A DNA stretch of 61,366 nt from Actinomycetota bacterium (GTDB lineage: Bacteria; Actinomycetota; Acidimicrobiia; Acidimicrobiales; UBA8592): NCBI GenBank assembly GCA_902565595.1, contig CACFFD010000003.1, positions 1-61,366 on the forward strand, read 5' to 3'. The translations under genes and the position numbers were made by a program. Each line of letters starts with the position of its first letter. Position 1 is the first letter of the stretch. The notes below the pieces were generated by a model. It saw nothing but the letters and a program-made list of their open reading frames with translations, was not told the origin of the DNA and did not search any database. This document shows, piece after piece, positions 2,583 through 46,760 of the stretch.

Positions 2583-4082
2583 ATGGGAAATACTGGACTT
2601 CTGATTATCCTTATTCTGGCAGGGTTCTTATTACTTGTTGGAATGTATGACCTGTTTCAAGTTAGGCATGCGATATTAAGGAATTTCCCGATAATTGGCC
2701 ATTTGCGGTATTTACTAGAAAAGATTGGCCCCGAGCTTCGACAGTATATTGTTGCTGATAATGACGAAGAGCGTCCGTTTAATAGAGACCAGAGAAGATG
2801 GGTTTATGCGACTGCGAAAAAAGAGAATCCGTACTTTGGTTTTGGAACAGATAATGATGTTGATCTTCCTGGAAGCATCATCATCAAACACTCCACCTTT
2901 CCCGCAGAGTCCCGACTCGCTGAGGATATTCTTCCTTCGCCAAAGATATTAGGATCTTGGGGGAATCGTCCTAAGGCCTTTCGCCCTAATTCACTTGTCA
3001 ACATTGCTGGAATGAGCTTTGGCTCTCTTTCAGGGCCAGCTATCAAGGCATTGAATAAAGGTTCTCTTCTAGCGGGATGCCTTCATAACACTGGTGAAGG
3101 AGGAATCTCTACGTATCACCGAAATGGTGGTGATTTGGTCTACCAAATTGGAACTGGGTTGTTCGGTAGTCGAGACTCCGAAGGGAATTTTTCCATGGAT
3201 GCTTTGCTTGAAACTATCTCTAATACACCAGTGAAAGCTATAGAAGTCAAGTTAAGTCAAGGGGCTAAACCTGGTATTGGGGGAGTTCTCCCAGCAAAGA
3301 AAGTAACTAGTGAAATCGCTGCAACTCGAGGAATCCCTAAAGGAGTAATGGTACAGAGTCCTTCAAAACACACCAGTTTCGATAACGTCAATGGCCTCAT
3401 AGAGTTTGTTGAGTTGATTGCATGTGAGACAGGGCTTCCAGTGGGCATTAAAGCTGCTGTTGGTCAGATTAATTTTTGGGTTGACCTCGCTGATCAAATG
3501 CAAGCAACTCGGAAAGGGCCTGATTTTATTGCTATCGATGGAGGAGAAGGGGGAACTGGTGCGGCTCCTTTAGTATTTTCCGATAGTGTTGCCTACCCAT
3601 TCCGGATTGGATTCGCGAAGGTTTTTGATATTTTCTACACACGCGGGCTTCATACCGAGATTACTTTTGTTGGGTCTGGAAAGCTTGGTTATCCAGATAC
3701 TGCGCTGGCGGCATTCGCTCTCGGTTGTGACATGGTTAATGTAGGTCGGGAGGCCATGATGGCTATTGGATGTATCCAAGCTCAACGTTGCCATACAGGT
3801 CATTGTCCCACTGGAGTCGCTACACAATCTTCGTGGCTTTCAAGAGGATTAGACCCAACTGATAAAAGTGTTCGAGTTATGAATTACGTTCACGCGTTAC
3901 AAAGCGAAATTCTTCGTCTCTGTCATTCTATTGGTGTCACGCATCCGGCCCTAATTCCTGAATCAGTCGTGGAAATTGTCAATCAGGAGGGTTCAGCTGT
4001 TTCACTGTTAAATTACTACGGCCTTTCATCAATTGATCAGAGACTTCGAGAGTCTGATTTAGAGTATCTTCACACTATTTAG
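2583..4082 (+). CDS. FMN-binding glutamate synthase-like protein, membrane anchored
   Basis: The 499-residue protein has one N-terminal membrane helix (residues 5-25) followed by a glutamate synthase central/FMN domain. Visible landmarks are IDGGEGGTGAAPLVFSD (FMN phosphate site), VGSGKLG, and CIQAQRCHTGHCPTGVATQ, whose three cysteines match the 3Fe-4S ligands of GltB. It lacks the glutaminase domain and FAD subunit of classical GltBD, so a stand-alone oxidoreductase is likely; substrate and electron donor are unknown. It converges with ctaA and the two stop codons interleave (4079-4082). Confidence 0.86.
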   Translation: MGNTGLLIILILAGFLLLVGMYDLFQVRHAILRNFPIIGHLRYLLEKIGPELRQYIVADNDEERPFNRDQRRWVYATAKKENPYFGFGTDNDVDLPGSIIIKHSTFPAESRLAEDILPSPKILGSWGNRPKAFRPNSLVNIAGMSFGSLSGPAIKALNKGSLLAGCLHNTGEGGISTYHRNGGDLVYQIGTGLFGSRDSEGNFSMDALLETISNTPVKAIEVKLSQGAKPGIGGVLPAKKVTSEIAATRGIPKGVMVQSPSKHTSFDNVNGLIEFVELIACETGLPVGIKAAVGQINFWVDLADQMQATRKGPDFIAIDGGEGGTGAAPLVFSDSVAYPFRIGFAKVFDIFYTRGLHTEITFVGSGKLGYPDTALAAFALGCDMVNVGREAMMAIGCIQAQRCHTGHCPTGVATQSSWLSRGLDPTDKSVRVMNYVHALQSEILRLCHSIGVTHPALIPESVVEIVNQEGSAVSLLNYYGLSSIDQRLRESDLEYLHTI

Positions 4083-5062
4083 GTCGTTAATTGCTTTATA
4101 TCTGGTTCTATGGGAAGTCGAAAGGCCAGGTATAGCCTCAGGGTCATAATCCATACGGCCACCGCACCGGCAATATGGAAACCTACAAGGAGTGCTGGTA
4201 CGTCTGTGAAGTACTGTGTATAGCCTATTGCTCCCTGAAGGACTGTAACTGTTAGTAAATTCTGAGCTTGAGAAAATACGTATTTGGTTTTTGCTGATTG
4301 GCTAATTCGAAAAACCACATATGTCATTACTATAAGAAATACGATCATTGTGATGGCATGAATTCTCGCTACGTCTGGGACCTCAAACGGAAGCCGCTTA
4401 ACTTCAAAACTTTCTGAATCTAAACGGAGTGTACCTTCTTGCAAATTTTCAAGAGCTTCTTTCGTTTGTGTCGTTTCTGCCCCACTGTGTGGTCCACTTC
4501 CAGTCACTAATGTTCCAGTAACTAAGACGCCTGATGCAAGCAGAACAAGTAATGAAGATAGAGAACGCAGAGGCGTCCGTATGGGTTGAGGGGGGGGACT
4601 GACAGAGAATTTCGCTCGATGATGTAATTCAACAGCATTCCAAACAAGGACCATGGAAATAAGAAAATGAGTGATAACAAGACTAGGTGGAAGGTGCTCT
4701 CGAACAACTAACGCTCCTACAAGTATTTGGATAATCACCCCGGCAACTAAGCCCAGAGACCACCACGTCAGGTCTTTGCGTCGGGGCTCTCTAAATATAG
4801 AACCCAGAACAGCGAGTATTACCGCTAAAGAGACGATTCCCGTGATCACCCGATTTACGAATTCAACCATTGCATGCAGATCACCTATTTCTGCTACAAG
4901 CTGGTCATCTTCGCATGTAGGCCAGTCGGAACAACCTAGGCCGGACCCGGTAAGTCGAACTGCTGCTCCAGTAACGATAATTAAAGATAGAAGTAGTACT
5001 GAGAGGTAGGTTATTTGCTGGTATTTCGTAGGCGTTAAACGAAATTTATGGAACATATGCAT
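4079..5062 (-). CDS. ctaA: Heme A synthase (COX15/CtaA)
   Basis: The 327-residue polytopic membrane protein has about eight helices. The first loop carries SGLGCSDWPTC with Cys44 and Cys50, the paired cysteines of CtaA, followed by the conserved E/H region around His63 (DLHAMVEFVNR). Other candidate heme ligands sit in REHLPPSLVITHF, in RIHAITM and in GFHIAGAVAVW. It converts heme O to heme A for the aa3-type oxidase encoded downstream. ctaB is divergent (139-base gap), so the two probably share a promoter region. An eight-G run at 4590-4597 falls inside the gene, but the frame is intact. Confidence 0.93.
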   Translation of the reverse strand: MHMFHKFRLTPTKYQQITYLSVLLLSLIIVTGAAVRLTGSGLGCSDWPTCEDDQLVAEIGDLHAMVEFVNRVITGIVSLAVILAVLGSIFREPRRKDLTWWSLGLVAGVIIQILVGALVVREHLPPSLVITHFLISMVLVWNAVELHHRAKFSVSPPPQPIRTPLRSLSSLLVLLASGVLVTGTLVTGSGPHSGAETTQTKEALENLQEGTLRLDSESFEVKRLPFEVPDVARIHAITMIVFLIVMTYVVFRISQSAKTKYVFSQAQNLLTVTVLQGAIGYTQYFTDVPALLVGFHIAGAVAVWIMTLRLYLAFRLPIEPDIKQLTT

Positions 5063-5201: not shown

Positions 5202-6104
5202 GTGGGTGTAACTTCTCTGCGGAAAGCTTCAATTGGGGAAAAAGTCAAGGGCTTTATTACTCTTATGAAACTTCGCGTTGTCGAGTTACTTCTCGTGACA
5301 ACCGTCCCAACGATGATCGTTGCCGAAGAGGGTTTACCTTCGATACTTCTTATTTTAGCTACCTTGCTTGGAGGGACGCTTTCTGCGGGTGGTGCTAACG
5401 CGATCAATATGTACATTGATCGCGATATTGATCCTCTAATGGAAAGAACAAAGAACAGGCCACTTGTTACCGGAGTTCTAAGTCCAAGTGAAGCGCTAAC
5501 CTTTGCTATTTCGATTGAAGCTCTCGCATTTCTCTGGTTGTGGCTCACTGTGAATCTTCTGAGTGCCTTTTTAGCTGTCGGCGCCTGCCTCTTCTATGTG
5601 TTCATTTATAGTTTGTGGCTTAAGAGAACCTCGACCAGTAACATCGTTATTGGCGGGGCGGCTGGAGCTGCTCCAGTTTTGATTGGCTGGACTGCAGTTG
5701 AGAATTCTTTAGATTGGCCTCCATTTATCCTTTTCGCCCTTATTTTTCTATGGACCCCTCCTCATTTCTGGGCTCTTGCGATCCGCTACAGGAAAGACTA
5801 CCACTCTGCAAAAATTCCTATGCTTCCTGTGATAGCAGGACCAGAATTTACTGGCACCAAAATGGTTCTATATTCCCTTGAAGTATGGGCCACTTCCATC
5901 ATCTTCGCTCCGGTAGCAGGAATGGGCGCTATATATCTCTGTGGTGCGCTAATACTGGGAGCCGCATTTGTCTATCTTTCTTTACAAGTTCGTCGGTATC
6001 AAACTGAACAATCAGCAATGCGGCTTTTTGGTTTTTCTATCACATATTTGACGCTTCTTTTCTTGATCATTGCTGTTGATGAATTAGTCCGAAGTGGTTT
6101 CTGA
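5202..6104 (+). CDS. ctaB: Protoheme IX farnesyltransferase (heme O synthase)
   Basis: The 300-residue UbiA-family membrane protein shows both Asp-rich prenyltransferase motifs: NAINMYIDRDIDPLMERTKN near residue 67 and KDYHSAKIPMLPV near residue 197. It attaches farnesyl to protoheme to give heme O, the substrate of CtaA. The start is GTG 5202 without a clear ribosome site, so a start a few codons away is possible. It lies upstream of the oxidase locus on the same strand. Confidence 0.93.
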   Translation: MGVTSLRKASIGEKVKGFITLMKLRVVELLLVTTVPTMIVAEEGLPSILLILATLLGGTLSAGGANAINMYIDRDIDPLMERTKNRPLVTGVLSPSEALTFAISIEALAFLWLWLTVNLLSAFLAVGACLFYVFIYSLWLKRTSTSNIVIGGAAGAAPVLIGWTAVENSLDWPPFILFALIFLWTPPHFWALAIRYRKDYHSAKIPMLPVIAGPEFTGTKMVLYSLEVWATSIIFAPVAGMGAIYLCGALILGAAFVYLSLQVRRYQTEQSAMRLFGFSITYLTLLFLIIAVDELVRSGF

Positions 6105-6292: not shown

Positions 6293-8011
6293 GTGACGGA
6301 AAATCAAACGGAAACTGGCTCAAACGCAGCTGAATCAGCGTCTGGCTCGCTAGATATTGGTGGGCTTGCGGGAGTATTTGGAACAAGCGACCATAAAAAT
6401 ATAGGCCGTTTGTATATCTTTTTTGGTTTATCAGGAGGGTTGCTGGCTCTTATTCTAAATATCTTTGTGAGGTTTGAGCGGATCAATATCGGGTCTGTGG
6501 GTATTTTAGATTTTGGATCATCAAATCAATTCTTCCAAACATGGAGCTTGTCCCGAACTACTTTGTTGTTTTTTTGTGTGTTGCCGCTCCTGATAGGTTT
6601 GGCTAGTTATATAGTTCCTCTTCAGGTTGGAGCGCCTTCTCTTTCTTTTCCTCGCGCCGCCGCATTAGCTTTTTGGGCATGGGCCATTGGAATTATGATT
6701 CATGTCGTTACTGTGTTTACTGATGGAGGTTTAGGAGAACCAGATCCAATATCGCAGTTTGCTCAAGGAATGGATCCAGATGCCACAGAGCTCTCCATGC
6801 TTTCGATAGCTATGGTTGTTTTTGCTTTGCTACTTGGAACCGTTTGTGTGCTAGCAACAATCATTTCTCAACGACCTCAAGGAATGACATTATTTGAACT
6901 TCCATTGTTCAGCTGGTCGATGCTTATCGCTGGGGGTATCTGGGTTCTGGCGTTACCTGTGTGGCTATCAAATCTCGCTGTTTCTTGGGTTGATTTCCAG
7001 GGAGCAGATGCTCTCCGGTACGGAGCCGTCGAGAACATATGGGACCAGCTTTCCTGGCTATGGTCCCAACCCATGATTTTCGCCTTTGCAATTCCTGTGC
7101 TCGGAATAGCTGGAGATGTTCTCCCTGTTTCTTTAGAAGTTCCCCAACGTAAATATAAGGTTCAACAGATTGCTATAGGGGCTATGGGTGCATTGTCGTT
7201 TGGAGCTTTTGCCCAGCCATTCTTCAATCCTGATGTAGCCAACCAGGCAGTATTTGTTGTAATGGGGATACTTATTGTTCTACCTATTTTGGTATTTCTC
7301 GGTGGACTAGTAGATACAGCATTTAGAGGTAACCTCTCGCTATCTGCTCATCTGATTCTTTCAGTAGTTGGAGTCCTCGCCCTACTGGTGGCTGCTGTAG
7401 TTTCTGCGTTCCATGTTTCTGGACCAGCGGTAGGCGCTGTTCAAGAGCTTAATGATAGTTGGTTAGACGGTTTAATCTCGTGGCTGCGAGATGTACAAGG
7501 AACTGTATTGGCAACAGCGGTGATGGAACACGCCCTCATAGCTTCCGTCATTGGTATTATTGCTGGGCTTTATTTCTGGGCCCCCAAAATATTTGGATAT
7601 CAGTTGAATCGTAATGTCGGAATTCTTTCCGCCTTGACGCTCCTAGGGGGTCTTGCACTATCTGGAGGGAGCAACATCATAAATGGTATTCTTGACGAAG
7701 GCGACGAGGTGTACCATTCATCAGCATATGAAGGGGTTTGGGATACTAATGCAGTTGAATTCTTCAATATTGTTGGTGCGATAGGAAGTCTTCTTCTCCT
7801 AGCGGGTGTAGGGCTAGTCATACTTGACTTAACAATTTCTGTCATCCTAAGAAAGGGCAATGAGGAGAATGCGAAAGACCCATGGGGTGGCCATACCTTG
7901 GAATGGGCAACAGATTCTCCTCCTCCAACAGGAAACTTCACTGATGCCCCTGTAGTTGACAATGAACGACCTCTATTATTTCCTGCCGTAACTGGAGGAG
8001 ATAAACAATGA
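6293..8011 (+). CDS. Ligand-less cytochrome oxidase subunit I paralogue
   Basis: The 572-residue, 12-helix-like membrane protein aligns with the CoxA encoded at 10902 over its whole length: SDHKNIGRLY, SYIVPLQVGAPSLSFPR, the FELPLFSW stretch, YFWAPKIFGY and a C-terminal DPWGGHTLEW. Every metal ligand is replaced. The low-spin heme His95 of CoxA aligns with Ser87, the CuB/Tyr motif HPEVY is QPMIF (259-263), the CuB HH pair is Gln308-Pro309, and the AHFH histidines align with Ala409 and Met411. It cannot bind hemes a/a3 or CuB in the usual way, so a structural or regulatory role is inferred. The GTG start at 6293 has a weak ribosome site. It is the first gene of the oxidase locus and overlaps the next by 4 bases. 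Confidence 0.85.
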   Translation: MTENQTETGSNAAESASGSLDIGGLAGVFGTSDHKNIGRLYIFFGLSGGLLALILNIFVRFERINIGSVGILDFGSSNQFFQTWSLSRTTLLFFCVLPLLIGLASYIVPLQVGAPSLSFPRAAALAFWAWAIGIMIHVVTVFTDGGLGEPDPISQFAQGMDPDATELSMLSIAMVVFALLLGTVCVLATIISQRPQGMTLFELPLFSWSMLIAGGIWVLALPVWLSNLAVSWVDFQGADALRYGAVENIWDQLSWLWSQPMIFAFAIPVLGIAGDVLPVSLEVPQRKYKVQQIAIGAMGALSFGAFAQPFFNPDVANQAVFVVMGILIVLPILVFLGGLVDTAFRGNLSLSAHLILSVVGVLALLVAAVVSAFHVSGPAVGAVQELNDSWLDGLISWLRDVQGTVLATAVMEHALIASVIGIIAGLYFWAPKIFGYQLNRNVGILSALTLLGGLALSGGSNIINGILDEGDEVYHSSAYEGVWDTNAVEFFNIVGAIGSLLLLAGVGLVILDLTISVILRKGNEENAKDPWGGHTLEWATDSPPPTGNFTDAPVVDNERPLLFPAVTGGDKQ

Positions 8012-8607
8012 ATATGGCTACAACTAACCTCCCAGCTGCTCCACCAGTAAGATCCAGAAATATTCTTGTCTCAGTAGGATTTGGTATAGCAGCAGTTTTG
8101 ATGTACTTCGGAGGACTTTTTGGTGTCTACTTACGTGAACGATCACAAGTCCGGTCTGTTGGCGGATCATGGATACCCGATAAGGCACGCATCGAATTAA
8201 CTCCTCCGGGAATGATCATTTGGACATTATTAATCTCTGTTGCCGTTATGCAGTGGGCAGTTTACTCAATCAAACGTGACGATCGCCAGCATGCCCTTTT
8301 GGCTGTAGGTACTACGCTTGCGATGGGAGCAATGGTACTAGTCCAACATGGTTGGCAGTTGTCACAAATGAACTTAGTAGCTGACGAAGGGCCTACTACT
8401 GCAGCGACATTGATTTACACCATAGTTGGAAGCTATATGGTTGCATTTGTAATCGGAATGATTTTCGTAGCCCTTATGGGATTCCGAGCCCTCGCCGGAC
8501 AATATAGTAGCCGCCAGACAGACGGCATCGTCGCTGCTTCTTTATATTGGTATTGTTTAGTGTTCATATATTTCATTATTTGGATAGCCGTCTTTATAGC
8601 GAAATGA
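8008..8607 (+). CDS. Degenerate cytochrome oxidase subunit III-like protein
   Basis: The 199-residue protein with about five membrane helices resembles COX3: FGGLFGVYLRERS in helix one, a TPPGMIIWTLLISVAVMQWA segment, and a last helix LYWYCLVFIYFIIW at the place where the normal CoxC here has YWHFVDVVWI. The conserved GFHGVHV and YWHFVD histidines are missing. It starts inside the end of the ligand-less COX1 gene, which suggests coupled translation and a shared complex. No catalytic role is expected. Confidence 0.7.
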   Translation: MNMATTNLPAAPPVRSRNILVSVGFGIAAVLMYFGGLFGVYLRERSQVRSVGGSWIPDKARIELTPPGMIIWTLLISVAVMQWAVYSIKRDDRQHALLAVGTTLAMGAMVLVQHGWQLSQMNLVADEGPTTAATLIYTIVGSYMVAFVIGMIFVALMGFRALAGQYSSRQTDGIVAASLYWYCLVFIYFIIWIAVFIAK

Positions 8608-8634: not shown

Positions 8635-9513
8635 ATGTTTTCTCCAGGATTCCGAATCTTTATGGGATTTGCTGGTTTCGGCCTTGTCGCTGCTTTCTTT
8701 TACGGCGTAGTTAGCGGTGATGGTGGAGGAGCAGACTATCTAGGATTTCTTGATGCTGAAAGCTGGACAGGAGCAGTAAGCCTCGGATGGAAAGGCGGTA
8801 TAGGTGACCATGTTGGATACATCATCCTAGTGATGCTGTTTATTTGTTCGGCTTGGCTGGCTATTATGCTTACAGCTTTCCGTGATGCTGACCCTGAAGC
8901 TGTAGCAGAACTTAATGGAGGTGAACTCCCGCCCGCTCAAGGACCAGTCAGTTATAACTTCTGGCCTGTGATCGGAGCATTCGGATTTGGTACTTTACTC
9001 ATAGGGCTTGTTACCCATACAGCTATATTCGTCGTAGGGCTATTGATCATTATTGCAACAACTTTCGAGCTCATGATGAGTGCATGGGCAGATAGGGCAA
9101 CAAGTGACCCAGTAGCAAATGCTGAGCTTCGAAACCAAATTATGAAACCGATAGAGGTTCCAGTGCTAGGAACTATAGGAATAGCTGTTGCAGTTCTTTG
9201 CTTTTCCAGAATTTTCTTAACTGTCTCAAAGTCATGGGCGATTTGGATAGCTGTTATTCTTTCCGCAGTTGTTTTTCTCGGTGCCTTAGCTTTTGCCTTA
9301 GCTGAAAAAGTAAATCGAAATCTTGTAGCGACTGTCTTAGCTTTTGGGGCAATCGCATTGCTTACGACCGGTATAGTTTCAGCAACTGTAGGTGAGCGCG
9401 AAATTTCTCACCATCATGTTGGAGAGCACAGTGGGGATCATGGTGGAGAACACAGTGACGATCATGGTGGAGAACACAGTGACGATCATGGTGGAGAAGG
9501 ACACGACAAATGA
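8635..9513 (+). CDS. CtaF-like membrane protein with His-rich tandem-repeat tail
   Basis: The 292-residue protein has about seven hydrophobic segments. Its first 150 residues resemble the actinobacterial oxidase subunit CtaF (Cyt_c_ox_IV): a helix pair followed by PVSYNFWPVIGAFGFGTLLI and a further pair. Extra helices follow, then a soluble tail (about residues 258-292) rich in His, Asp, Glu and Gly built of 8-residue repeats of the type GEHSDDHG. The tail could bind copper or other metal ions; this is inference. It ends overlapping the coxB start by 4 bases. The similarity to CtaF is by eye and moderate. Confidence 0.6.
   Translation: MFSPGFRIFMGFAGFGLVAAFFYGVVSGDGGGADYLGFLDAESWTGAVSLGWKGGIGDHVGYIILVMLFICSAWLAIMLTAFRDADPEAVAELNGGELPPAQGPVSYNFWPVIGAFGFGTLLIGLVTHTAIFVVGLLIIIATTFELMMSAWADRATSDPVANAELRNQIMKPIEVPVLGTIGIAVAVLCFSRIFLTVSKSWAIWIAVILSAVVFLGALAFALAEKVNRNLVATVLAFGAIALLTTGIVSATVGEREISHHHVGEHSGDHGGEHSDDHGGEHSDDHGGEGHDK
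9421..9492 (+). repeat. Three 24-bp tandem repeats encoding a His/Asp-rich tail
   Basis: Three consecutive 24-base units (9421-9444, 9445-9468, 9469-9492) are nearly identical; the second and third are exact copies and the first differs at three bases. Each encodes G-E-H-S-(G/D)-D-H-G. A degenerate fourth partial unit ends the gene. Confidence 0.9.
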
Positions 9514-10865
9514 TGAAGACTAGAGATAATTTCAGGCTCGCAGGCCTTAAAGGACCTGATGATCATGAAGTGGGTCTAAAACGGAATCGCCGCTGGGTTG
9601 TCATACTTCTTACTGTCATTGCTGTTTTGTTCATAACTGGATGTGCGAGCAATGCTCCACTGGACACCCTTGACCCTGCAGGGCGGAAATCAAACGACAT
9701 CAATAATCTAATTAATCCGATCTTCGTTATTGCGGGAATTGTCTTTGTCATTATTCAGGGAGCCGTTCTCTATCTGGGGTGGAAATTCAAAGTACGTGAA
9801 CCCAAAGACGGTGAAGAGTCTTTTGATGGTGGGTATCCAGATGAAGAATTCCCAGAACAAGTTCACGGTCACTTCGCAGCTGAAATTGGCTGGACGATTG
9901 GGCCAACGATCCTTATGGCAGCAATAGCAATATTCAGTGTAGGAGCTTTACTTAACCTTGACGACGTTGACGCCGCCCCTGACGAAGCTGTATATCCAGA
10001 AATGGAAGTGCTTGTTGTCGGACAACAGTGGTGGTGGGAATTCCAGTACTACCTTGATGGCATTGATGGGGCAGAACAACCAGATTTTGTTACTGCAAAT
10101 GAAATTGTTATCCCCGTTGGGCAAGATATAAGGATTCATACAACTTCCCGAGACGTTCTCCACAGTTTTTGGATTCCACGCCTTAACGGAAAGAAAGACT
10201 CTGTTCCAGGAAGAACATCTCCATGGGTACTTCAATCAAATGAAATCGGCAGATTTGCAGGTCAATGCACTGAGTTTTGTGGTTTAAGCCATGCGTACAT
10301 GCGCATGTACGCAGTTTCACTTTCGCAAGAGGATTTTCAAATATGGGTTAATAACCAAGTCACAATTCGTCAGCCCCTTCAAGAGGGAGATGAGAATTAT
10401 GAAGGGGAGCAAGTATTCCTTCTGAATTGTGCAAGATGCCATGTCATTAATGGAGTTACCTCGCGGGAAGTTTCTGGGAGTATTCAATTAGACTCCATGG
10501 CTTTATACGGAAACATAGAAGAATACAGGAACCATTCTGATGGAACGCTTTCACAAGGGAAATACACAGGGTCAGAAAATCTGACGGCAGGAGCAGCCCC
10601 AAATCTTACCCATTTCGCTTCAAGAAGTAGCTACGCGGGTTCATTCTTCGAGTTGTATCCTGATGCACAAGAGATGGCTGATGCTGGAAACTACCTTGAT
10701 CTTGCTGGCAGTAACTACAGTAGGGCAACTCTTGAAGCATGGCTTCGGAACTCACCTAAAGCAAAACCCAACGCACAGCCTGAGCAGGCTAGGGGTATGC
10801 CTAACTTGAATTTGAGTGAGGCAGATATTGATTTACTCGTCGACTATCTAATTTCACTGGATTAA
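9510..10865 (+). CDS. coxB: Cytochrome c oxidase subunit II fused to cytochrome c (caa3 type)
   Basis: The 451-residue protein begins with a lipoprotein-like signal ending LFITGC (Cys45), then two membrane helices. The CuA domain carries QQWWWEFQYY, HSFWIPRLNGKKD and GQCTEFCGLSHAYM, so all CuA ligands (His, two Cys, His, Met) are present. A C-terminal cytochrome c domain has CARCH near residue 310 and a likely Met ligand in GMPNLNLS. It takes electrons from cytochrome c or directly from the bc complex and passes them to CoxA. It sits between the CtaF-like gene (4-base overlap) and coxA. Confidence 0.96.
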   Translation: MMKTRDNFRLAGLKGPDDHEVGLKRNRRWVVILLTVIAVLFITGCASNAPLDTLDPAGRKSNDINNLINPIFVIAGIVFVIIQGAVLYLGWKFKVREPKDGEESFDGGYPDEEFPEQVHGHFAAEIGWTIGPTILMAAIAIFSVGALLNLDDVDAAPDEAVYPEMEVLVVGQQWWWEFQYYLDGIDGAEQPDFVTANEIVIPVGQDIRIHTTSRDVLHSFWIPRLNGKKDSVPGRTSPWVLQSNEIGRFAGQCTEFCGLSHAYMRMYAVSLSQEDFQIWVNNQVTIRQPLQEGDENYEGEQVFLLNCARCHVINGVTSREVSGSIQLDSMALYGNIEEYRNHSDGTLSQGKYTGSENLTAGAAPNLTHFASRSSYAGSFFELYPDAQEMADAGNYLDLAGSNYSRATLEAWLRNSPKAKPNAQPEQARGMPNLNLSEADIDLLVDYLISLD

Positions 10866-10901: not shown

Positions 10902-12932
10902 ATGGCAGTTGTTGAACAAGAAGAAGCTCCACTCGAACTAGAATCAGGCGAAGATCAGGTTACCGAACGTCCCCTCGGTGCTTTCACAAGGCCCGGCGGC
11001 GGAGGTGGCTGGCGAAGCTGGCTGTTTACCGTTGATCATAAGAAAATCGGGATTATGTATGGAGCGGCTGGCCTGCTTTTCTTCATCATTGGTGGTATTT
11101 ACGCACTGTTCATGAGGTTACAGCTTGCTCGTCCCAATAATTCTATTCTTTCAGCGGAAACATACAATCAAGTTTTCACGATGCATGGAGTAGTGATGAT
11201 CTTCCTAGCTGCAATTCCTCTAGGTGCAGCATTTTCTAATTATCTTATTCCTCTCCAAATAGGGGCTCGAGATGTTGCTTTCCCAAGATTGAATGCTTTT
11301 AGTTTCTGGGTTTTCCTAGGTGGAGGACTTTTCCTTCTAACATCCATGTTCATTGGAGGCTGGTGGGAGAACGCACCGGATGGTGGATGGTTCGCTTACT
11401 CCCCAAACACGGGAGTCCTCTTTTCCCCAAGTAAAGGTATAGATTTTTTCGCAATTGGACTTCAAATCACAGGTATAGCTTCCCTCGTTGGTGCTATTAA
11501 CCTAATCGTGACTGTGCTCAACATGCGTTCGCCTGGGATGACATTAATGAAGATGCCAGTGCTTACTTGGATGCTATTCATTGTTCAGCTACTTCTTCTA
11601 TTCGCAATGCCTGTTATTTCTGTGGCGCTATTTCTTCTTACATTTGATCGGCTGTTCGATGCAAACTTCTTCAATGTGGCACAAGGCGCTGACCCATTAC
11701 TCTGGCAGCACCTGTTCTGGATTTTCGGCCACCCAGAGGTTTATATTCTTATTCTTCCAAGCTTCGGTGTTATTTCAGAGATCATTCCAACATTCAGTAG
11801 GAAACCAATATTTGGATACCCGTTTATGATCTTCTCAGGAATCGCTATTGGATTTATGGGTTGGGGAGTATGGGCACACCATATGTTTGCTTCAGGAATC
11901 GGACCTGTTGCTGTAGCAGCGTTCTCAGTTTCAACAATGTTTATCGCCGTCCCGACTGGTGTAAAGATATTAAATTGGCTTGCAACTATGTGGGGTGGAC
12001 GAATACGTTTTACAACCCCAATGCTGTATGCGACATCAGTCGTGGCTATGTTCACCATCGGTGGTCTTTCGGGGGTCACTCACTCTCTAGCTGCTGCTGA
12101 TACGCAACAGACCGACACCTACTACATCGTGGCGCATTTTCACTATGTTATTTTCGGCGGGATTATTCTTGGATTCTTTGGCGGATTTTATTTCTGGTGG
12201 CCAAAAATGTTCGGATATTTCTTATCGGAAAAGATAGGGAAATCGAGCTTTTGGGTTATGGTCATCGGTTTTAACCTGACCTTCGGGCCTATGCATATTC
12301 TTGGGTTGCAGGGAATGAGCCGTCGAATTCAAACCTACTCAGAAGGTCAGGGCTTTGATTTGTGGAATCTTGTAGCAACAATTGGTGCTTTCTTGATTGC
12401 AGTCGCGACCGCTATGTTCATTGCGAATGTCTTTATAAGCTGGCGCGCTCACCGAGCAGGAAAGACCCCTGCACCGGGACCCGATCCATGGGACGCACGA
12501 TCCCTTGAATGGATGACTGCTTCGCCAGTACCAGAGCACAACTTTGATGAAACAATTGAAGTTGAACGTCAAGATGAGTTCTGGCATAGAAAGTGGGGTA
12601 AAGACGAAACGGGTCGTGTAGTTAGAAGAGCAACAGCAGAAGAGGTTGCCCATGACGGAAGTAACACGAACGTACACCTCCCCTCGCCATCTTATTGGCC
12701 TATCGTCGCAGCTCTAGGACTACCGATTATTGGTTATGGACTTATCTACAATTTATGGCTATGTGTAGTTGGAGGCCTATTTGTTCTCGGCGGGTTATAT
12801 GGCTGGGTCTTTGAACCCGTCGATGATCCAAATGATGATGGGCATCATGACCATGAAGCTCATGGAACTTCGGAAGAAACACGAGCTGAAGAAGTAGATG
12901 AAAATAGTTCTGAGGAGGTTTCCGTTGACTGA
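10902..12932 (+). CDS. coxA: Cytochrome c oxidase subunit I (aa3-type, A1 class)
   Basis: The 676-residue protein has 12 core helices plus C-terminal extra segments. All ligands are visible: His95 in FTMHGVVM and His414 for heme a, His277/His326/His327 for CuB, His412 for heme a3, and the cross-link Tyr281 in HPEVY. Glu279 marks the A1-type D channel and Lys355 (PTGVK) the K channel. The C-terminus adds about 100 residues with two more hydrophobic segments and a His/Asp/Glu-rich tail. It is the catalytic proton-pumping subunit. coxC begins inside its 3' end. Confidence 0.97.
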   Translation: MAVVEQEEAPLELESGEDQVTERPLGAFTRPGGGGGWRSWLFTVDHKKIGIMYGAAGLLFFIIGGIYALFMRLQLARPNNSILSAETYNQVFTMHGVVMIFLAAIPLGAAFSNYLIPLQIGARDVAFPRLNAFSFWVFLGGGLFLLTSMFIGGWWENAPDGGWFAYSPNTGVLFSPSKGIDFFAIGLQITGIASLVGAINLIVTVLNMRSPGMTLMKMPVLTWMLFIVQLLLLFAMPVISVALFLLTFDRLFDANFFNVAQGADPLLWQHLFWIFGHPEVYILILPSFGVISEIIPTFSRKPIFGYPFMIFSGIAIGFMGWGVWAHHMFASGIGPVAVAAFSVSTMFIAVPTGVKILNWLATMWGGRIRFTTPMLYATSVVAMFTIGGLSGVTHSLAAADTQQTDTYYIVAHFHYVIFGGIILGFFGGFYFWWPKMFGYFLSEKIGKSSFWVMVIGFNLTFGPMHILGLQGMSRRIQTYSEGQGFDLWNLVATIGAFLIAVATAMFIANVFISWRAHRAGKTPAPGPDPWDARSLEWMTASPVPEHNFDETIEVERQDEFWHRKWGKDETGRVVRRATAEEVAHDGSNTNVHLPSPSYWPIVAALGLPIIGYGLIYNLWLCVVGGLFVLGGLYGWVFEPVDDPNDDGHHDHEAHGTSEETRAEEVDENSSEEVSVD

Positions 12933-13542
12933 AACAGCAACTACCGAAACATCTAACGATCACAGTGAAGATCACGTATCCACGCTTGGGGTATCAAATG
13001 ACAAATTAGGGATGTGGGTCTTCCTAGGTTCCGATTGCTTGCTCTTTGGCGGGCTTATTTCCACCTACATGCTGTACAAGGACCGAATAGGCCCTGATGA
13101 CCTAGGTCCCGAGGAGATGTTTGATATTCCCTTCACCTCTGTAAGCTCATTTGTCCTACTGATGAGCTCTCTTACAGTTGTTCTAGCGATTACAGCGCTT
13201 CGGAGAAATGACATCCGCCGTTGTAGGATATGGTTACTTTCAACCGCTATTCTCGGAGCGATTTTTGTCGGTGGTCAAGTTTATGAATTCACTGTTTTCT
13301 ATCGTGAGGGACTCGGTTATACCACCAATCTGTTTGGTACATCATTCTTTACCCTTACCGGTTTCCATGGAGTGCACGTTTCAGTAGGAATCATTATGCT
13401 CATGTCCATGTACATACAGTCGATGCGAGGAAAGTTGACTTCGGCAAACGAGGAAAAACTTGAGATCATAGGCCTCTATTGGCACTTCGTGGACGTTGTA
13501 TGGATTGTTATATTTACTATCGTCTACCTTTTCCCACAATAG
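12898..13542 (+). CDS. coxC: Cytochrome c oxidase subunit III
   Basis: The 214-residue protein has about five helices with KLGMWVFLGSDCLLFGGL at the start, GFHGVHVSVG in the middle and LYWHFVDVVWIVIFTIVYLF at the end, all hallmarks of COX3. It overlaps coxA by 35 bases if the ATG at 12898 is used; the TTG at 12928, preceded by GAGGAGG, would give a shorter protein starting MTETATTET and is a good alternative. It stabilises the proton-pumping core. Confidence 0.94.
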   Translation: MKIVLRRFPLTETATTETSNDHSEDHVSTLGVSNDKLGMWVFLGSDCLLFGGLISTYMLYKDRIGPDDLGPEEMFDIPFTSVSSFVLLMSSLTVVLAITALRRNDIRRCRIWLLSTAILGAIFVGGQVYEFTVFYREGLGYTTNLFGTSFFTLTGFHGVHVSVGIIMLMSMYIQSMRGKLTSANEEKLEIIGLYWHFVDVVWIVIFTIVYLFPQ

Positions 13543-13552
13543 GAGAAACCAG

Positions 13553-13984
13553 ATGGCAACAACTGACCAATTAACCGAAAGCGCCGAAGAAAATGTTTCT
13601 TGGGTTCAAGAAGACTGGATCTACATTAAGACTGCTATTGTGCTCGCTGTCTTTACAGCGATTGAGGTCTTCACCTATTTTGAATCAGTTCATCAAGCTC
13701 CGGAGTGGCTTCTAGTTCTCACTCTGTCATTTCTTATGGTTATAAAGTTCTTCCTTGTCGCCGCAATCTTTATGCATCTGCGCGATGACAATGCGATCTT
13801 CACCAAAATGATGGTCCTGGGCTTGTGTATCGCATGGCCTGTCTACTTTGTGATGGCGTTTGCATTCGGTTTTCTACCTGATTGGAATCCCATTCTTAAA
13901 GTAATGTTCCTTCTTGTCCCACCAGCGATAACCGGATTTTGGTTGGGGTATTCATTCAAAGGTGGAACCGGCGGGCACCATTAA
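13553..13984 (+). CDS. coxD: Cytochrome c oxidase subunit IV family protein
   Basis: The short protein has three membrane helices; the central KFFLVAAIFMHLRDDN stretch is typical of the CyoD/CtaF-type bacterial subunit IV (COX4_pro). I place the start at ATG 13553 (MATTDQLTESAEE), which has AGGAG just upstream and avoids a long overlap with coxC; a frame extension to 13496 exists. It is the last structural subunit of the oxidase. The locus also has a second, CtaF-like candidate at 8635. Confidence 0.86.
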   Translation: MATTDQLTESAEENVSWVQEDWIYIKTAIVLAVFTAIEVFTYFESVHQAPEWLLVLTLSFLMVIKFFLVAAIFMHLRDDNAIFTKMMVLGLCIAWPVYFVMAFAFGFLPDWNPILKVMFLLVPPAITGFWLGYSFKGGTGGHH

Positions 13985-14069: not shown

Positions 14070-14924
14070 GTGGTACTTGCAGCCGACCCCCAAATATGGA
14101 GATTCCAGTTTCACCCTGAGGTGTGGATTCTCATAGCAGGTATTCTTCTTTTAGCCCGTTACTCCGTTAAGGTGGTGGCACCAAATTTGGTTCCGCCAAA
14201 TGAAGAAATCTACACACGCAAGAATTTCTATGCATTTTGGCTGGCGCTCTTTGCCCTCTGGTTTGCTTCTGACTGGCCTATGCACGATATTTCAGAAGAA
14301 TACCTGTATTCGGTTCATATGGTTCAACATATGATCATTTCACTCATTGTCCCACCCCTATTTCTTTCTGCACTTCCTGTATGGCTAACAAAGGCAATAT
14401 TTAGTACTTTCGGTGGTGATAGAACCTTTACAAAGCGAATCTCAAATCCGATCGCAGCGGGTATTTGCTACAACTTGGTCGTGATTGTTACCCATTTGCC
14501 ATTTGCAGTTAATTACTCGATTGAGAGTGGCTCATTTCACTACTTTCTGCATCTCGCTGTCTTTATATCTTCCCTCTGGATGTGGCTTCCAATTATCAAC
14601 CCAATGAAAGAATTTCGGATTAGCCTCCCTACCCAAATGGTGTACCTCTTCTTGATGTCCGTCGTACCTACAGTTCCAGCAGGTTTTTTAACGTTCGCTG
14701 GAGGCGCTCTCTATGATGCGTATGACCACCAAGTCAGGCTTTGGGGGATAGATATCACTACAGATCAGCAACTCGCAGGGTTAGTCATGAAACTTGTAGG
14801 AAGCATATATCTATGGGTATGGATAGCAGCACGGTTCTTTCAATGGAGCAGAAGAAATCAGCCAGAGATGGTCCTAGTTGAACCAAAAGTTGAAGACTCT
14901 AAAGTTCCAACAAATCTTGACTAA
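14070..14924 (+). CDS. ctaG: Cytochrome c oxidase assembly factor CtaG (caa3_CtaG)
   Basis: The 284-residue protein has about seven membrane helices. It carries the family's histidine-bearing stretches: DWPMHDISEEYLYSVHMVQH near residues 72-91, THLPFAVNY, HYFLHLAVF, and a C-terminal DQQLAGLVMKLVGSIYLW. CtaG proteins of this kind are needed for copper insertion or assembly of caa3 oxidase in Bacillus. It closes the oxidase locus and converges with serS, whose stop lies 2 bases away. The start is GTG 14070. Confidence 0.9.
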   Translation: MVLAADPQIWRFQFHPEVWILIAGILLLARYSVKVVAPNLVPPNEEIYTRKNFYAFWLALFALWFASDWPMHDISEEYLYSVHMVQHMIISLIVPPLFLSALPVWLTKAIFSTFGGDRTFTKRISNPIAAGICYNLVVIVTHLPFAVNYSIESGSFHYFLHLAVFISSLWMWLPIINPMKEFRISLPTQMVYLFLMSVVPTVPAGFLTFAGGALYDAYDHQVRLWGIDITTDQQLAGLVMKLVGSIYLWVWIAARFFQWSRRNQPEMVLVEPKVEDSKVPTNLD

Positions 14925-41958: not shown

Positions 41959-42555
41959 GTGGCTCAACGAAGGCCAATTGATGTAGCAGTAACAAAATTT
42001 TACGGAGCGATGATTGTCTCTACCGTAGGCACATTTGCCATTGTTGCAGTTTGGGTTGGATTAACTCGAAGTGCCAACGGCAGACAGTTCCCTTATCTCA
42101 ACACAGCATTTGTTTTGAGTTGGATTATTTCTGTGTTGCTCATTGCTGGAATTCTTGAATATGCCCGGCGACGCCCTATAGATGCGAAATTAAGTTGGGG
42201 TGAAGCCAATGTATGGGCCTTTTATGTTTTCCTGCTTCTCTTTTGGATCTATGGAGTAGTGCCTCATCAATGGCTAACATTCGCAAGTAATGACTTGTCT
42301 TGGAGAGCTGATAAGGAGCTTATAGGGCCAACAGGTTTGGGTTTCACAAATGGTGAAGGAATTCTACAGTGGGCGCTGCCCTTTAAATTAAACTACTTGG
42401 TTGTCGGGGACTTGATTGTTGTTGTTATGTATGGGATGGCGTTAGTTGCAAATGTTGCTCTTTGGTCTATTTGGCAGAATCGCGGAAAGGAAGCCCCGCC
42501 AGAAATTGAAACCTCTACATACGGCAGGCCCATCCTAAGAGAAGGGTCATCGTAA
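41959..42555 (+). CDS. Unknown four-helix membrane protein of the bc operon
   Basis: The 198-residue protein has about four membrane helices (around residues 15-35, 48-65, 84-104 and 145-166) and a conserved-looking His/Trp loop VVPHQWLTFASNDLSWRAD. I do not recognise a family. It is the first gene of the operon, begins at GTG after GAGGGG, and its stop overlaps the ferredoxin start region. A lineage-specific subunit of the quinol-cytochrome c reductase is a reasonable inference. Confidence 0.75.
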   Translation: MAQRRPIDVAVTKFYGAMIVSTVGTFAIVAVWVGLTRSANGRQFPYLNTAFVLSWIISVLLIAGILEYARRRPIDAKLSWGEANVWAFYVFLLLFWIYGVVPHQWLTFASNDLSWRADKELIGPTGLGFTNGEGILQWALPFKLNYLVVGDLIVVVMYGMALVANVALWSIWQNRGKEAPPEIETSTYGRPILREGSS

Positions 42556-42971
42556 TGGGAGTAACTGACGCTAATCCTCCACTTCCAGAATTTCGGGATG
42601 ACTATGTGCTTCAAGAAGTAGATGCCGAATGGCTCTCAAAGGCAGTCAAGCCAAAGCAGTTCATTCACATCGATCAATCTGAATGTATTATGTGTGAAGG
42701 CTGCGTAGACATCTGCCCTTGGAAATGTATTCACATGGTAAGGCCAGAGGCGATTTCTGAAGCTGTAGGAACTGAACTTCCGGGCTCCGACCCATCTGAT
42801 CATGTAATTTTCACTATTGACGATGATGTGTGCACCCGATGTGCGCTATGTGTTGATAGATGCCCAACCGGAGTCATTATTCTTGGTAAATTAGATGATC
42901 CTCCAGCTGGCGGTGACGCTCACCAAAGAATGCCTTCCCACGGTTATGGCTATGGGATGCGATTGGGGTAG
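42555..42971 (+). CDS. Dicluster 4Fe-4S ferredoxin-like protein
   Basis: The 138-residue protein has two complete C-x2-C-x2-C-x3-C motifs: CIMCEGCVDICPW near residue 45 and CTRCALCVDRCPTGV near residue 94, separated by about 35 residues. No membrane helix or export signal is seen, so it should sit on the cytoplasmic side. Its place inside a cytochrome bc operon is unusual and suggests it links a cytoplasmic donor to the complex; this is inference. Confidence 0.9.
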   Translation: MGVTDANPPLPEFRDDYVLQEVDAEWLSKAVKPKQFIHIDQSECIMCEGCVDICPWKCIHMVRPEAISEAVGTELPGSDPSDHVIFTIDDDVCTRCALCVDRCPTGVIILGKLDDPPAGGDAHQRMPSHGYGYGMRLG

Positions 42972-43019
42972 TTATGTTAAAAGGTTCGATTTTTCAATTA
43001 GATGAGATAAGGAATTAAA

Positions 43020-43784
43020 GTGCCAAAGCAGTCAGTAGGTGAAAAACTTAACGACATCTCGGAACAGATGAAGTCCTCGCAGGCGTGGAATTCTATCTTC
43101 CGCCCCGGTTCGATTTTTCGAAAAGGATATTCAGACAGTCCAAGAAACCGGTCGTATGTTGTGATGAACAGTCTTATCTATCACTTGCACCCAGTGAAGG
43201 TAAAGCGACATGCCGTCAAGGTAAGTTATACCCTTTGTTTGGGCGGGTTGAGCTTCTTCTTATTTATCCTTCTTACGGTTACAGGAATCTTCTTAATGTT
43301 TTTCTACAGACCCACCGCAGCACAAGCTTGGGATGATATTTATACACTCCAAACATCAGTCACTTTTGGGCTCTTGGTTCGAAACATGCATCGGTGGGCA
43401 GCCCACTTGATGGTGCTGACAGTGTTTTTGCATATGGCACGCGTTTTCTATCACGGCGCTTACAAAGCTCCGCGCGAGTTTAACTGGGTCATTGGTGTCA
43501 TTCTCTTGACCCTTACCCTTCTGTTATCATTTACTGGATATTTACTACCCTGGGATCAGCTAGCACTGTGGGCAGTAACCGTTGGAACTAACATGATGGG
43601 GTACACCCCTGTCTTTGGTGATCAAGTACGTTTTGTTTTGCTTGGAGGAGTAGAAATAGGAACCGACACTCTCCTCAGATGGTACGTTCTCCATGTCTTG
43701 ATGCTGCCATTTGTTGCAGTTATCTTCATGGCTATCCATTTTTGGCGAGTACGTAAGGATGGAGGTATTTCTGGCCCCCTATAG
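43020..43784 (+). CDS. Cytochrome b6-type N-terminal cytochrome b of a quinol-cytochrome c reductase
   Basis: The 254-residue, four-helix protein has the heme ligands of helix B spaced H-x13-H (MHRWAAH to FLHMARVF) and of helix D spaced H-x14-H (VLHVLML to AIHFW), the latter as in cytochrome b6 rather than mitochondrial cytochrome b. A cysteine in YTLCLGGLSF matches the Cys that binds heme ci covalently in b6f and Bacillus bc complexes. The C-terminal half of the b subunit is a separate gene next downstream. Confidence 0.93.
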   Translation: MPKQSVGEKLNDISEQMKSSQAWNSIFRPGSIFRKGYSDSPRNRSYVVMNSLIYHLHPVKVKRHAVKVSYTLCLGGLSFFLFILLTVTGIFLMFFYRPTAAQAWDDIYTLQTSVTFGLLVRNMHRWAAHLMVLTVFLHMARVFYHGAYKAPREFNWVIGVILLTLTLLLSFTGYLLPWDQLALWAVTVGTNMMGYTPVFGDQVRFVLLGGVEIGTDTLLRWYVLHVLMLPFVAVIFMAIHFWRVRKDGGISGPL

Positions 43785-43802
43785 GCCGGAAGAACAAGCA
43801 TT

Positions 43803-44531
43803 ATGGCTGAAATTCCCGAACATCTATTGAAAAGAGCCCAAGAAGCTCGAGACCGCCTCCAAGGGAGTGACGAGGGGGCTGCTACAGCAACAGAAGACAA
43901 ATCCGAAGCCAAGATCCCCGAACACTTACTCGAGCGAACCGTTGCAGCTAAAGATCGAGAACCTGTGGCAGCTGCTGCTGCAGCTGCACCCATTTCAGGT
44001 TCGGCTCCGCTTCCGCCAGCTGGTAGTGGACCGGGAGGGAATACCCAGAGGCTACTCACTGTCGTAAAGTCGGGGTCAATTCAGGATGTGAAGCTTAAAC
44101 CTGTCGATAAAGTTCATGTCTGGCCTCATCTACTAATTGTTGAATTCGTAGCGGCTCTGTCAATAACGGCCTTCACAGTTATCTTCTCTATCTTTGTCAA
44201 TGCTCCATTGTTAGAACTGGCGAACTTTAATCAAACCCCCAACCCATCAAAAGCGCCTTGGTACTTCCTGGGGCTGCAAGAACTCCTAACATTGTTCCAC
44301 CCAATGGTCGCCGGAGTAACAATACCTGGGCTAGCGCTTTTCCTCTTAATCTTGGCCCCGTACATTGACAAAAATCCATCAAATAAGCCTGAAGATAGAA
44401 AATTCGCCATCTCGCTTATGACAATTCACCTCATGTTCTGGGGCGTATTAGTGATGATCGGATCTTTCTTCAGGGGACCTGGATTCAACTTTATATTCCC
44501 ATGGGCAGACGGATTGTTCTTCGAGCTATGA
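43803..44531 (+). CDS. Cytochrome b C-terminal (subunit IV-like) with N-terminal IPEHLLER motifs
   Basis: The 242-residue protein has about 85 N-terminal residues of low complexity with two copies of the short motif IPEHLL(K/E)R followed by alanines and prolines. Three membrane helices of the cytochrome b/b6 C-terminal domain follow. The Qo-site loop reads NPSKAPWYFLGLQELL, with APWY in place of PEWY, as in some menaquinol reductases. It pairs with the b6-type protein just upstream. Confidence 0.9.
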   Translation: MAEIPEHLLKRAQEARDRLQGSDEGAATATEDKSEAKIPEHLLERTVAAKDREPVAAAAAAAPISGSAPLPPAGSGPGGNTQRLLTVVKSGSIQDVKLKPVDKVHVWPHLLIVEFVAALSITAFTVIFSIFVNAPLLELANFNQTPNPSKAPWYFLGLQELLTLFHPMVAGVTIPGLALFLLILAPYIDKNPSNKPEDRKFAISLMTIHLMFWGVLVMIGSFFRGPGFNFIFPWADGLFFEL

Positions 44532-44595
44532 GTAAAAACGTTTCCTTCCTTGCGGCGATAGCCACCTATAATCTCACCTGTAAAGGGAGGCTTCG

Positions 44596-45462
44596 GTGGT
44601 AGTTCTTTCTATTGCTATCCCAGCGGTCGTTTTTCTAGCCCTCTTGCTAGTATTTGCCGCATCACGGCGAAACGAAACGGTAAGAGCTGAAGGTTACCTA
44701 AGTAAGGAAACACTTCAGCGAGATGTTAGTAGCGAGACATCTGAAACTACTGAATCCGAAATATCTCAAATTTCCGGAAAAGAAATTGAACGAGCAGCAG
44801 TTTTAGAACGTCAGGGCGGTAAGGAAATTGTCCTTCAAGAACAATCCAGCCCAGTTCCATGGGTGGCTCCCGATGAAGAAACAGTTGGTATTGCCCGAAG
44901 GCAATTTCTCAACAGGAGCATCATAGGGCTCATGGGAATCTCTCTTAGTAGCTTTGGTGCAGCCTGTATCGCATTTCTTTATGGTGGCGGCGGCGGTGGT
45001 GGTTTTGGATCTAAAATCACTGTTGGGAACGTTACCGATATCCAAGCTCGCATCGATGCAGCAAACGGTTTTCTTTACGTCCCTGAAGGACGCATGTGGG
45101 TGACAAAGTATCCTGCCGGATCCGTAAAAAAAGCTGAAACAGCATACTCAGCACCAGAACTTGCAGGAATGCGAGCTGGGTTAGTGGCCTTATATCAAAA
45201 ATGCCCACATTTGGGATGTCGAGTTCCAGAGTGCCAAACTTCCCAATGGTTTGAATGCCCGTGTCATGGTTCGCAATATAACCGAGTCGGAGAAAAACGT
45301 GGTGGCCCAGCCCCCAGAGGTATGGATCGTTTCGCTATGGAAGTGAAAGACGGCGTGTTTATTGTGGATACAGGAACGATTATTCAAGGGCCTCCAATCG
45401 GTGTAAATACCACCGGACAAGAAGCTGAAGGACCTAACTGTATAAGTGAGTCCTCACACTAA
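44596..45462 (+). CDS. Rieske iron-sulfur protein of the bc complex
   Basis: The 288-residue protein has an N-terminal membrane helix, a linker, a twin-arginine-like segment RRQFLNRSIIGLMGIS leading into a second helix, a glycine-rich hinge, and a C-terminal Rieske domain. The cluster ligands are in CPHLGC and CPCHGSQY, and an insertion PECQTSQWFE between them carries an extra Cys. It moves electrons from quinol at the Qo site to cytochrome c. GTG start with AGGGAGG. Confidence 0.94.
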   Translation: MVVLSIAIPAVVFLALLLVFAASRRNETVRAEGYLSKETLQRDVSSETSETTESEISQISGKEIERAAVLERQGGKEIVLQEQSSPVPWVAPDEETVGIARRQFLNRSIIGLMGISLSSFGAACIAFLYGGGGGGGFGSKITVGNVTDIQARIDAANGFLYVPEGRMWVTKYPAGSVKKAETAYSAPELAGMRAGLVALYQKCPHLGCRVPECQTSQWFECPCHGSQYNRVGEKRGGPAPRGMDRFAMEVKDGVFIVDTGTIIQGPPIGVNTTGQEAEGPNCISESSH

Positions 45463-45497
45463 TGAGCACAGATAAGAGATAAGAAGAAACCCAGCAA

Positions 45498-46760
45498 ATG
45501 ATAATTTTCGCCGCATCAACACAACGAACTATAGGGCTTGTAATTGCTGTAGTTGTCGCGGCTGGTTTTGCCATTTATGTTCTTTTTAACCTTAGACAAG
45601 GCCGCAAGGAAATCGGTGCTGAAATTGAACTCGCGCCAAATAGAAAACCCTATTACGATGACGACATCCTCGAGACAAAGCGTTTAGATATTGCTCTTGC
45701 GGGTGGAGTAGCGACACTAATCATCATAGCTTTAGCCCTTCCGTTGTATTGGTTAGGGGAACCTGGCCGGCAAAAAGGATATGATGAGTTTACAGAAACA
45801 GTGTTTGCGAGCCGCGGTGGTGAAGCCTATGAAGAATTGTGTGCTCAATGTCATGGTGCTGGAGGCGTTGGAGGGCAAGCAGCATACACAGTACTTGACG
45901 ATGATGGCCGTTACATAGCAAGCGTTAATTGGACGGCGCCAGCTCTTAATAACATCCTTTACCGATTTAGCATCGAAGAAGTTACTCACATCTTAAATTA
46001 CGGAAGGCCGCAATCTCCTATGCCGGCTTGGGGAGCTCCGGGAGGTGGCCCCCTGACGTCCCAGCAACTTGAGACCATTGTTGAATACTTAAGCGTGATT
46101 CAACTTACTCCAGAACAGATGGAAGAAGAGGTTCAGGCTGGACTTCGTGAGAGTGTTCTAAAGGAAGTAAGAGACCAAAATCCTGAAGCGACTGAATCAG
46201 AACTTCAAGAAGCCTACAACGTCCTTTTCCCAGGTCTAGGTGATGCCCTTGCAGAACAAACAGCTATACAACAGGATTCAGAAGCTGCAGTAGAAGACAT
46301 TGATGCAGCAAAAACAACTGTGGAAGGACTCCTAGATGATTATCTAGTCGTACTTGCTACCTCAAATGCAGAAAAATATGGTGAGTATTTATTTAATAAC
46401 CCTGCTGGTGCAGGATCGTATGCGTGTGCTCGCTGTCATACAGCTGGGTCCTCATGGAATGCAAATGAGGTGCTACAGGAAAATCCTTCACTAGAAGGAC
46501 TTATTGACCCTGAGGTACCTGGAAGTGGTGGCTTTGGCCCCTCACTCATTGGAGTGGCATCTCAGTTCACCTCTCCATTTTCTCAATCTCAATTTATCTC
46601 GGTTGGTTGCGAAGCGAACCTTCAATATGGGATGAATGGGGTTTGTGAGCCTTCGGGCCAGATGCCTGGTTTCGGCTATAACGCAACTGATCTTGAAGGA
46701 TCGATGCTTTCTCCAGAACAAATTGATGCGATTGTTGAATACGAAAGGGCTATGCGATGA
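45498..46760 (+). CDS. Membrane-bound diheme c-type cytochrome of the bc operon
   Basis: The 420-residue protein has two N-terminal membrane helices (near 10-30 and 68-88) and two CxxCH sites: CAQCHGAGG near residue 115 and CARCHTAGS near residue 312. Met ligands may be in SPMPAWGAP and QMPGFGYN. The long acidic, helical segment between the two heme domains is unusual. It is likely the cytochrome c subunit that takes electrons from the Rieske protein, as QcrC does in actinobacterial supercomplexes. Its stop overlaps the next gene. Confidence 0.92.
   Translation: MIIFAASTQRTIGLVIAVVVAAGFAIYVLFNLRQGRKEIGAEIELAPNRKPYYDDDILETKRLDIALAGGVATLIIIALALPLYWLGEPGRQKGYDEFTETVFASRGGEAYEELCAQCHGAGGVGGQAAYTVLDDDGRYIASVNWTAPALNNILYRFSIEEVTHILNYGRPQSPMPAWGAPGGGPLTSQQLETIVEYLSVIQLTPEQMEEEVQAGLRESVLKEVRDQNPEATESELQEAYNVLFPGLGDALAEQTAIQQDSEAAVEDIDAAKTTVEGLLDDYLVVLATSNAEKYGEYLFNNPAGAGSYACARCHTAGSSWNANEVLQENPSLEGLIDPEVPGSGGFGPSLIGVASQFTSPFSQSQFISVGCEANLQYGMNGVCEPSGQMPGFGYNATDLEGSMLSPEQIDAIVEYERAMR

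Follow-up and report, generated by a model that had tools for sequence, protein, structure and literature searches.

A second copy of cytochrome oxidase subunit I that lacks every heme and CuB ligand is encoded next to a working oxidase in the stretch of DNA analysed here (61,366 nt from an Actinomycetota bacterium; in the following, the window). Next to this protein, called I', the cluster encodes a degenerate subunit III (III') and a protein with a subunit IV-like domain (X). Based on computed homology, ligand loss, selection, single origin, gene linkage and the make-up of X, we favour the explanation that I', III' and X probably form a catalytically dead pseudo-oxidase half which assembles with the active caa3 oxidase (CoxB-CoxA-CoxC-Cox4). 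The metal site of heme-copper oxidases is a textbook invariant of the superfamily. Much of the order Acidimicrobiales keeps, beside its working oxidase, a second oxidase core in which this site was apparently lost stepwise and whose scaffold is under selection.

The oxidase genes of the window form one cluster on the plus strand, with ctaA alone being divergent. The genes for heme A synthase (ctaA, 4079-5062, minus strand) and heme O synthase (ctaB, 5202-6104, the conserved upstream neighbour of I') were assigned from product sequence, neighbourhood and conserved order. The open reading frame of I' (6293-8011, 572 aa) begins with a GTG whose position is conserved in relatives. Its stop codon is overlapped by the ATG of III' (8008-8607, 199 aa; ATGA), and the stop codon of X (8635-9513) overlaps the start of coxB. 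The active side comprises coxB (9510-10865) for subunit II, with a CuA domain and a fused cytochrome c of the caa3 type (PF00116, PF00034, and TIGR02866 over its cut-off), coxA (10902-12932; TIGR02891 over its cut-off) for a subunit I with every ligand present, coxC (12898-13542; PF00510, 75.8 bits) for subunit III, and cox4 (13553-13984; PF03626) for the prokaryotic subunit IV (COX4_pro). The C-terminus of CoxA carries a fused CtaF-like stretch, which is matched by PF12270 at residues 591-638 and also by a CtaF profile. The cluster continues with the oxidase assembly factor gene ctaG (14070-14924; PF09678). A scan for promoters and terminators gave signals at chance level only.

The subunit-I paralogue and its ligand columns

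I' is recognised as a subunit-I homologue by the COX1 model PF00115 with 134 bits (cut-off 34.8; E 7e-39) and aligns end to end with the CoxA of the same locus (25% identity, E 2e-41). The original prediction had described I' as such a paralogue with preserved structural motifs and is borne out on both counts, as DHKxIG, PLQxGA..FPR and YFWxPKxFG are all present. An AF2 model built with 46 family sequences (pLDDT 83, pTM 0.89) predicts that the subunit-I fold is retained. In Foldseek, this model is nearest to mycobacterial and corynebacterial CtaD (TM 0.79), and a sequence search of PDB chains agrees with this placement.

All six heme and CuB histidines and the cross-link tyrosine had been reported as changed, which was confirmed at the seven columns. 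From CoxA to I', His95 is replaced by Ser87, His277 by Gln259, His326 by Gln308, His327 by Pro309, His412 by Val410 and His414 by Glu412, while Tyr281 corresponds to Phe263. Only the last pair has to be corrected: it had been read as A and M with one His displaced by two residues, and in the family alignment the pair is V and E, with His413 following in the next column. The I' of the window therefore holds none of the six His ligands of a functional subunit I, and the residues that characterise a functional oxidase of the A family (cross-link Tyr, D91/E242 and K319 in bovine numbering) are all replaced. The D-channel Asp124 and the Glu at the end of this channel (HPEVY) are gone, as are the K-channel Lys355 and the Arg-Arg pair, losses which the original prediction had not mentioned. 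I' also stays below the CtaD/CoxA equivalog cut-offs, with 207.8 versus 670.75 bits for TIGR02891 and 202.4 versus 880 for NF050116.

His413 was found in the window's genus only (6/46 rows of alignment A2) and is therefore no relocated ligand of the whole family. The family alignment contains no replacement His or Cys column conserved across the I' proteins; its conserved columns of this type are Cys185 and two histidines, His34 and His534, that are part of conserved motifs with no role as ligands. The possibility that the ligands are simply shifted in the alignment was rejected because of this lack of a conserved substitute column.

The fate of the ligands was surveyed in 75 non-redundant I' paralogues versus their canonical CoxA partners. 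All six ligand histidines are lost in 48 of the 75, and the maximum number kept is three, in five paralogues. No CuB histidine is left in 64 paralogues, one is left in 11, and two are never found. The equivalents of D91 and K319 are missing throughout (75/75), and the C-terminal Leu-Glu-Trp (LEW) motif is retained in 74/74. Chance is no explanation for this pattern, since the canonical partners, apart from unread letters, are invariant at the seven columns and the paralogues keep at most one CuB histidine.

In a basal clade (L057, L058, L062 and L063, with the motif HRxAGHH or HRFLPHH) the heme a pair and the heme a3 histidine are kept and the CuB histidines are not, and the same holds for L055. 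As some early branches thus retain heme a/a3 histidines, the ligands appear to have been lost stepwise, and the most parsimonious order would be CuB first and the hemes later, followed by drift of the site. The substitutions proposed for orthologues beside coxB/coxA recur within genus and family only, and the genus of the window has them fixed (S, Q, F, Q, P, V, E); elsewhere, the residues vary widely between families and some heme histidines persist. This diversity across the order, together with the heme histidines of some early branches, indicates a site that was freed from selection and not rebuilt. Judged from sequence, the ligand site represents a lost constraint inside a constrained scaffold.

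Partner genes, distribution and descent

The unit extends beyond the paralogue singled out by the original prediction. III' belongs to the COX3 family according to PF00510 (28.2 bits, cut-off 23.8). Its nearest curated model is the actinobacterial CtaE, and it scores far under the subfamily cut-offs of CtaE/CoxC. The N-terminal part of X (8635-9090) is a CtaF-like (subunit IV) domain of four TM segments with an inserted segment. PF12270 gives 10.8 bits for this half, under the Pfam cut-off of 26.9; the profile-profile comparison with CtaF by hhalign yields 96.6% (E 5e-10, 113 columns) and places it as a remote homologue, with six other operon families reaching at most 19% as a control. In module loci, a CtaF HMM built without X sequences picks up ten X proteins as well as the C-terminal end of CoxA. 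The AF2 model of the whole of X is poor (pTM 0.55) and gave little information in Foldseek, where the top PDB match is CtaF of C. glutamicum with an E of about 1.

The C-terminal part of X (9091-9513) consists of a 3-TM domain and a His/Asp-rich tail. The 3-TM domain has its match in the membrane portion of a cupredoxin protein which is encoded right after ctaG in the caa3 operons of sister orders. X is thus a fusion of a CtaF-like domain of the pseudo-side with a 3-TM domain of the caa3 side, and this fusion is the strongest sequence hint that the two halves are physically linked. The tail (window positions 9391-9510) is a His/Asp-rich repeat (GEHSDDHGGEHSDDHGGEGHDK), with a shorter His-rich end in relatives, and possibly binds metal. 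The 3-TM protein of the sister orders (L184-L191, L193, L195, L196, L198), located directly 3' of ctaG, has a plastocyanin-like C-terminal domain and is possibly an oxidase-bound copper electron carrier.

By a search of 40 relatives, longer flanking stretches and a scan of genome contigs, about 90 loci with an I' homologue were collected. The order ctaB-I'-III'-X-coxB-coxA-coxC-cox4-ctaG is nearly invariant among them. In 69 of 78 loci, the stop codon of I' overlaps with or directly adjoins a start codon (III'), and in 52 of 72 loci that of X does so with the start of coxB. With X as marker gene for the I'-III'-X module, the module is present in 131/198 genomes and 82/133 genera of Acidimicrobiales, and no full-length X was found outside this order in the class sample or in the phylum sample. 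In those genomes of the order with full-length X that were examined, I' lies immediately upstream; the genomes without X have canonical CoxA only, where checked. The module was found in independent assemblies, including single-contig genomes. Two genomes each carry one stop codon inside X (G023:C1:14186-14950 and G156:C84:16846-17352), which reflects either decay at these sites or errors of assembly. The full module is also present on a contig assigned to Terriglobia (Acidobacteriota; L100, JAKUNG010000025.1); the CoxA encoded there clusters within Acidimicrobiales, so that mis-binning or transfer is likely.

Purifying selection, for which a check had been suggested, is evident from the median dN/dS within the genus (Nei-Gojobori, pairs with dS 0.1-1.5), with I' at 0.056, III' at 0.021, X at 0.039 and CoxA at 0.014. 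In trees calculated after removal of the ligand columns, I' forms one clan (64/64 paralogues, support 1.0; 72/72 in another tree). III' is likewise one clan (55/55, support 0.998). The view of I' as a conserved inactive subunit instead of a decayed gene thus holds, given the same operon position order-wide, the low dN/dS, the single clan and the absence of stops from the sampled paralogues. A recent duplication of the adjacent coxA was rejected, since I' forms a separate old clan. Distances of I' and CoxA are correlated (r = 0.83), and the rate of I' is 3.75 times higher, as expected for a subunit under looser constraints. A tree rooted on a distant protein from another order (L192, see below) splits the paralogue set, which we attribute to long-branch attraction; without this protein, a single clan is obtained.

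For I' and most III' proteins, NF050116 and NF050119, which model actinobacterial aa3 oxidases, give higher scores than the QoxB/C and CyoB/C models. The active CoxC scores in reverse, and CoxA ranks QoxB over the actinobacterial model. This better fit to aa3 models makes a source in a CtaD/E/F oxidase likely, and the I' module would descend from a once complete actinobacterial aa3 oxidase of this type. As the attachment of the I' clan among canonical CoxA proteins is weak (support 0.46-0.51), this descent is called likely rather than shown.

In another order of the class, a 715-aa protein is encoded immediately 5' of coxB (L192:7093-9237, minus strand, genome G051). It resembles subunit I of cbb3 oxidases (CcoN), has other residues in place of the six ligand histidines, is fused to a 3-TM domain of the X type and a cupredoxin, and looks like an independent dead subunit I adjoining a caa3 operon. 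Relatives of this CcoN-like protein (L231-L237, L238-L251) occur in sister orders, in 20/198 genomes of the class including G051, and the ligand histidines are absent from all seven that were aligned. No cox genes adjoin these relatives in the 14 stretches examined, and several of the loci have a second frame of 280-460 aa alongside, with a weak match. The L192-type proteins would constitute a second family of ligand-less heme-copper oxidase homologues.

Possible role of the module

The recognition of III' and X as further subunit paralogues makes a pseudo-dimer the leading explanation. Among the roles that the original prediction had considered, the second half of a pseudo-dimeric oxidase is therefore the one that stands, with the complex itself being what we infer, and the quinone- or lipid-binding role found no specific support. 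In such an arrangement, I' would retain the 12-helix scaffold of subunit I and presumably the surfaces for III' and the CtaF-like X. In the lineage of the window it would bind neither heme nor copper and would not pump protons. It may rather act as a structural or interface subunit, that is, as a pseudo-symmetric partner which stabilises or shields the active half or provides it with a surface for docking, for instance to the bc complex. By analogy, I'-III'-X would pair with the active half as CydB pairs with CydA in cytochrome bd. The ancestor was most likely an aa3 oxidase that dropped its CuA subunit and lost first the CuB site and next the heme ligands. Of this picture, the association, the symmetry, the role and the exact ancestor are inferred from the computed results. 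The chances appear evenly balanced for the more far-reaching version, a "twin" oxidase in which the dead aa3 core (I', III' and IV', without CuA) is the obligate pseudo-symmetric partner of the active caa3 oxidase in much of the order and the living lineages represent consecutive steps in the loss of cofactors, beginning with CuB and proceeding to the heme ligands.

The operon and overlap data would also fit a co-expressed separate complex or an assembly factor. The module is flanked by ctaB and coxB in a cluster bounded by ctaA and ctaG, and its own III' and IV'-like partners would be sufficient for a self-contained complex. That I'-III'-X is a separate membrane complex, or a dedicated assembly or chaperone module for caa3 that serves as a template or holding site while heme A and copper are inserted, and does not stay in the finished enzyme as a stable subunit, nevertheless seems unlikely to us, since the assembly factors of the oxidase family (CtaG, Surf1, Cox11 and Sco) are not known to be copies of subunit I, the C-terminal half of X occurs in sister orders as a domain encoded within the caa3 operon, and these orders have the same type of operon without the module. 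In a special case of the favoured assembly, the main role of the module would be that of an obligate linker of a III-IV supercomplex, which attaches the oxidase to the bc complex. Supercomplexes of the III2-IV2 type are formed by actinobacterial aa3 oxidases, as seen in the PDB entries matched by Foldseek, and the window itself encodes a bc-type complex (41959-46760) that comprises a Rieske protein, a two-cytochrome-c protein and a cytochrome b that is split. This linker role is distinctly unlikely, however, as nothing sequence-specific ties I' to bc and coxB already has its own cytochrome c. It is a conjecture that this bc complex is a further partner. Directly 5' of its cytochrome b gene lies that of a small protein bearing two Cys motifs of the 4Fe-4S type.

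A novel mode of binding a redox cofactor or ligand (heme elsewhere, quinone, O2 or NO), with I' as sensor or electron relay, draws on the basal members, whose three histidines (heme a pair and heme a3, no CuB) imply that some lineages may still bind heme. We consider this reading quite improbable, because in the window lineage all six histidines are gone, no His or Cys conserved across the family replaces them and His413 is confined to the genus. A pseudogene or MAG artefact heading for loss is hardly conceivable and is already contradicted: the accelerated evolution of I' and the interrupted X in 2/131 genomes could be read in this direction, but a dN/dS of about 0.06, intact frames order-wide, the conserved order and overlaps, and the independent assemblies speak against it.

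Comparison with known oxidases

No earlier description of a dead oxidase half was found in the literature searched, most of which lies outside subscription journals. The Sulfolobales FoxA system, which has two subunit-I genes, was not used as a parallel, the FoxA literature examined reporting no ligand loss. As the I' genes match models named "cytochrome c oxidase subunit I", they would cause the number of terminal oxidases in a genome to be overestimated.

Compared with CtaD of M. smegmatis (7rh6/6adq) and C. glutamicum (7q21), I' has the same fold, length and a C-terminal DPWxGxTLEW..PPP..NF tail at about 25% identity, but lacks the ligands for heme a, heme a3 and CuB, the cross-link Tyr, both the D and the K channel and a CuA subunit of its own. 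The N-terminal half of X aligns over the length of CtaF, to which X adds the 3-TM extension and the His-rich tail. The caa3 operon of the sister orders (coxBACD-ctaG) shares the active genes and their arrangement and encodes a relative of the 3-TM domain in the C-terminal half of X; it lacks I' and III', however, and its 3-TM domain bears a cupredoxin and is not fused to a CtaF-like part.

The living lineages would serve as natural intermediates in which to ask what an oxidase scaffold does without its cofactors. A parallel is found in CydB, a heme-free partner which forms a pseudo-symmetric heterodimer with the catalytic CydA (PMC8413341). This parallel is one of analogy between unrelated families, and here a whole set (I', III' and the IV'-like domain) accompanies a heme-copper oxidase in a putative dimer. 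If the two halves do assemble, they would represent a CydA/CydB-like pseudo-dimer in an unrelated oxidase family.
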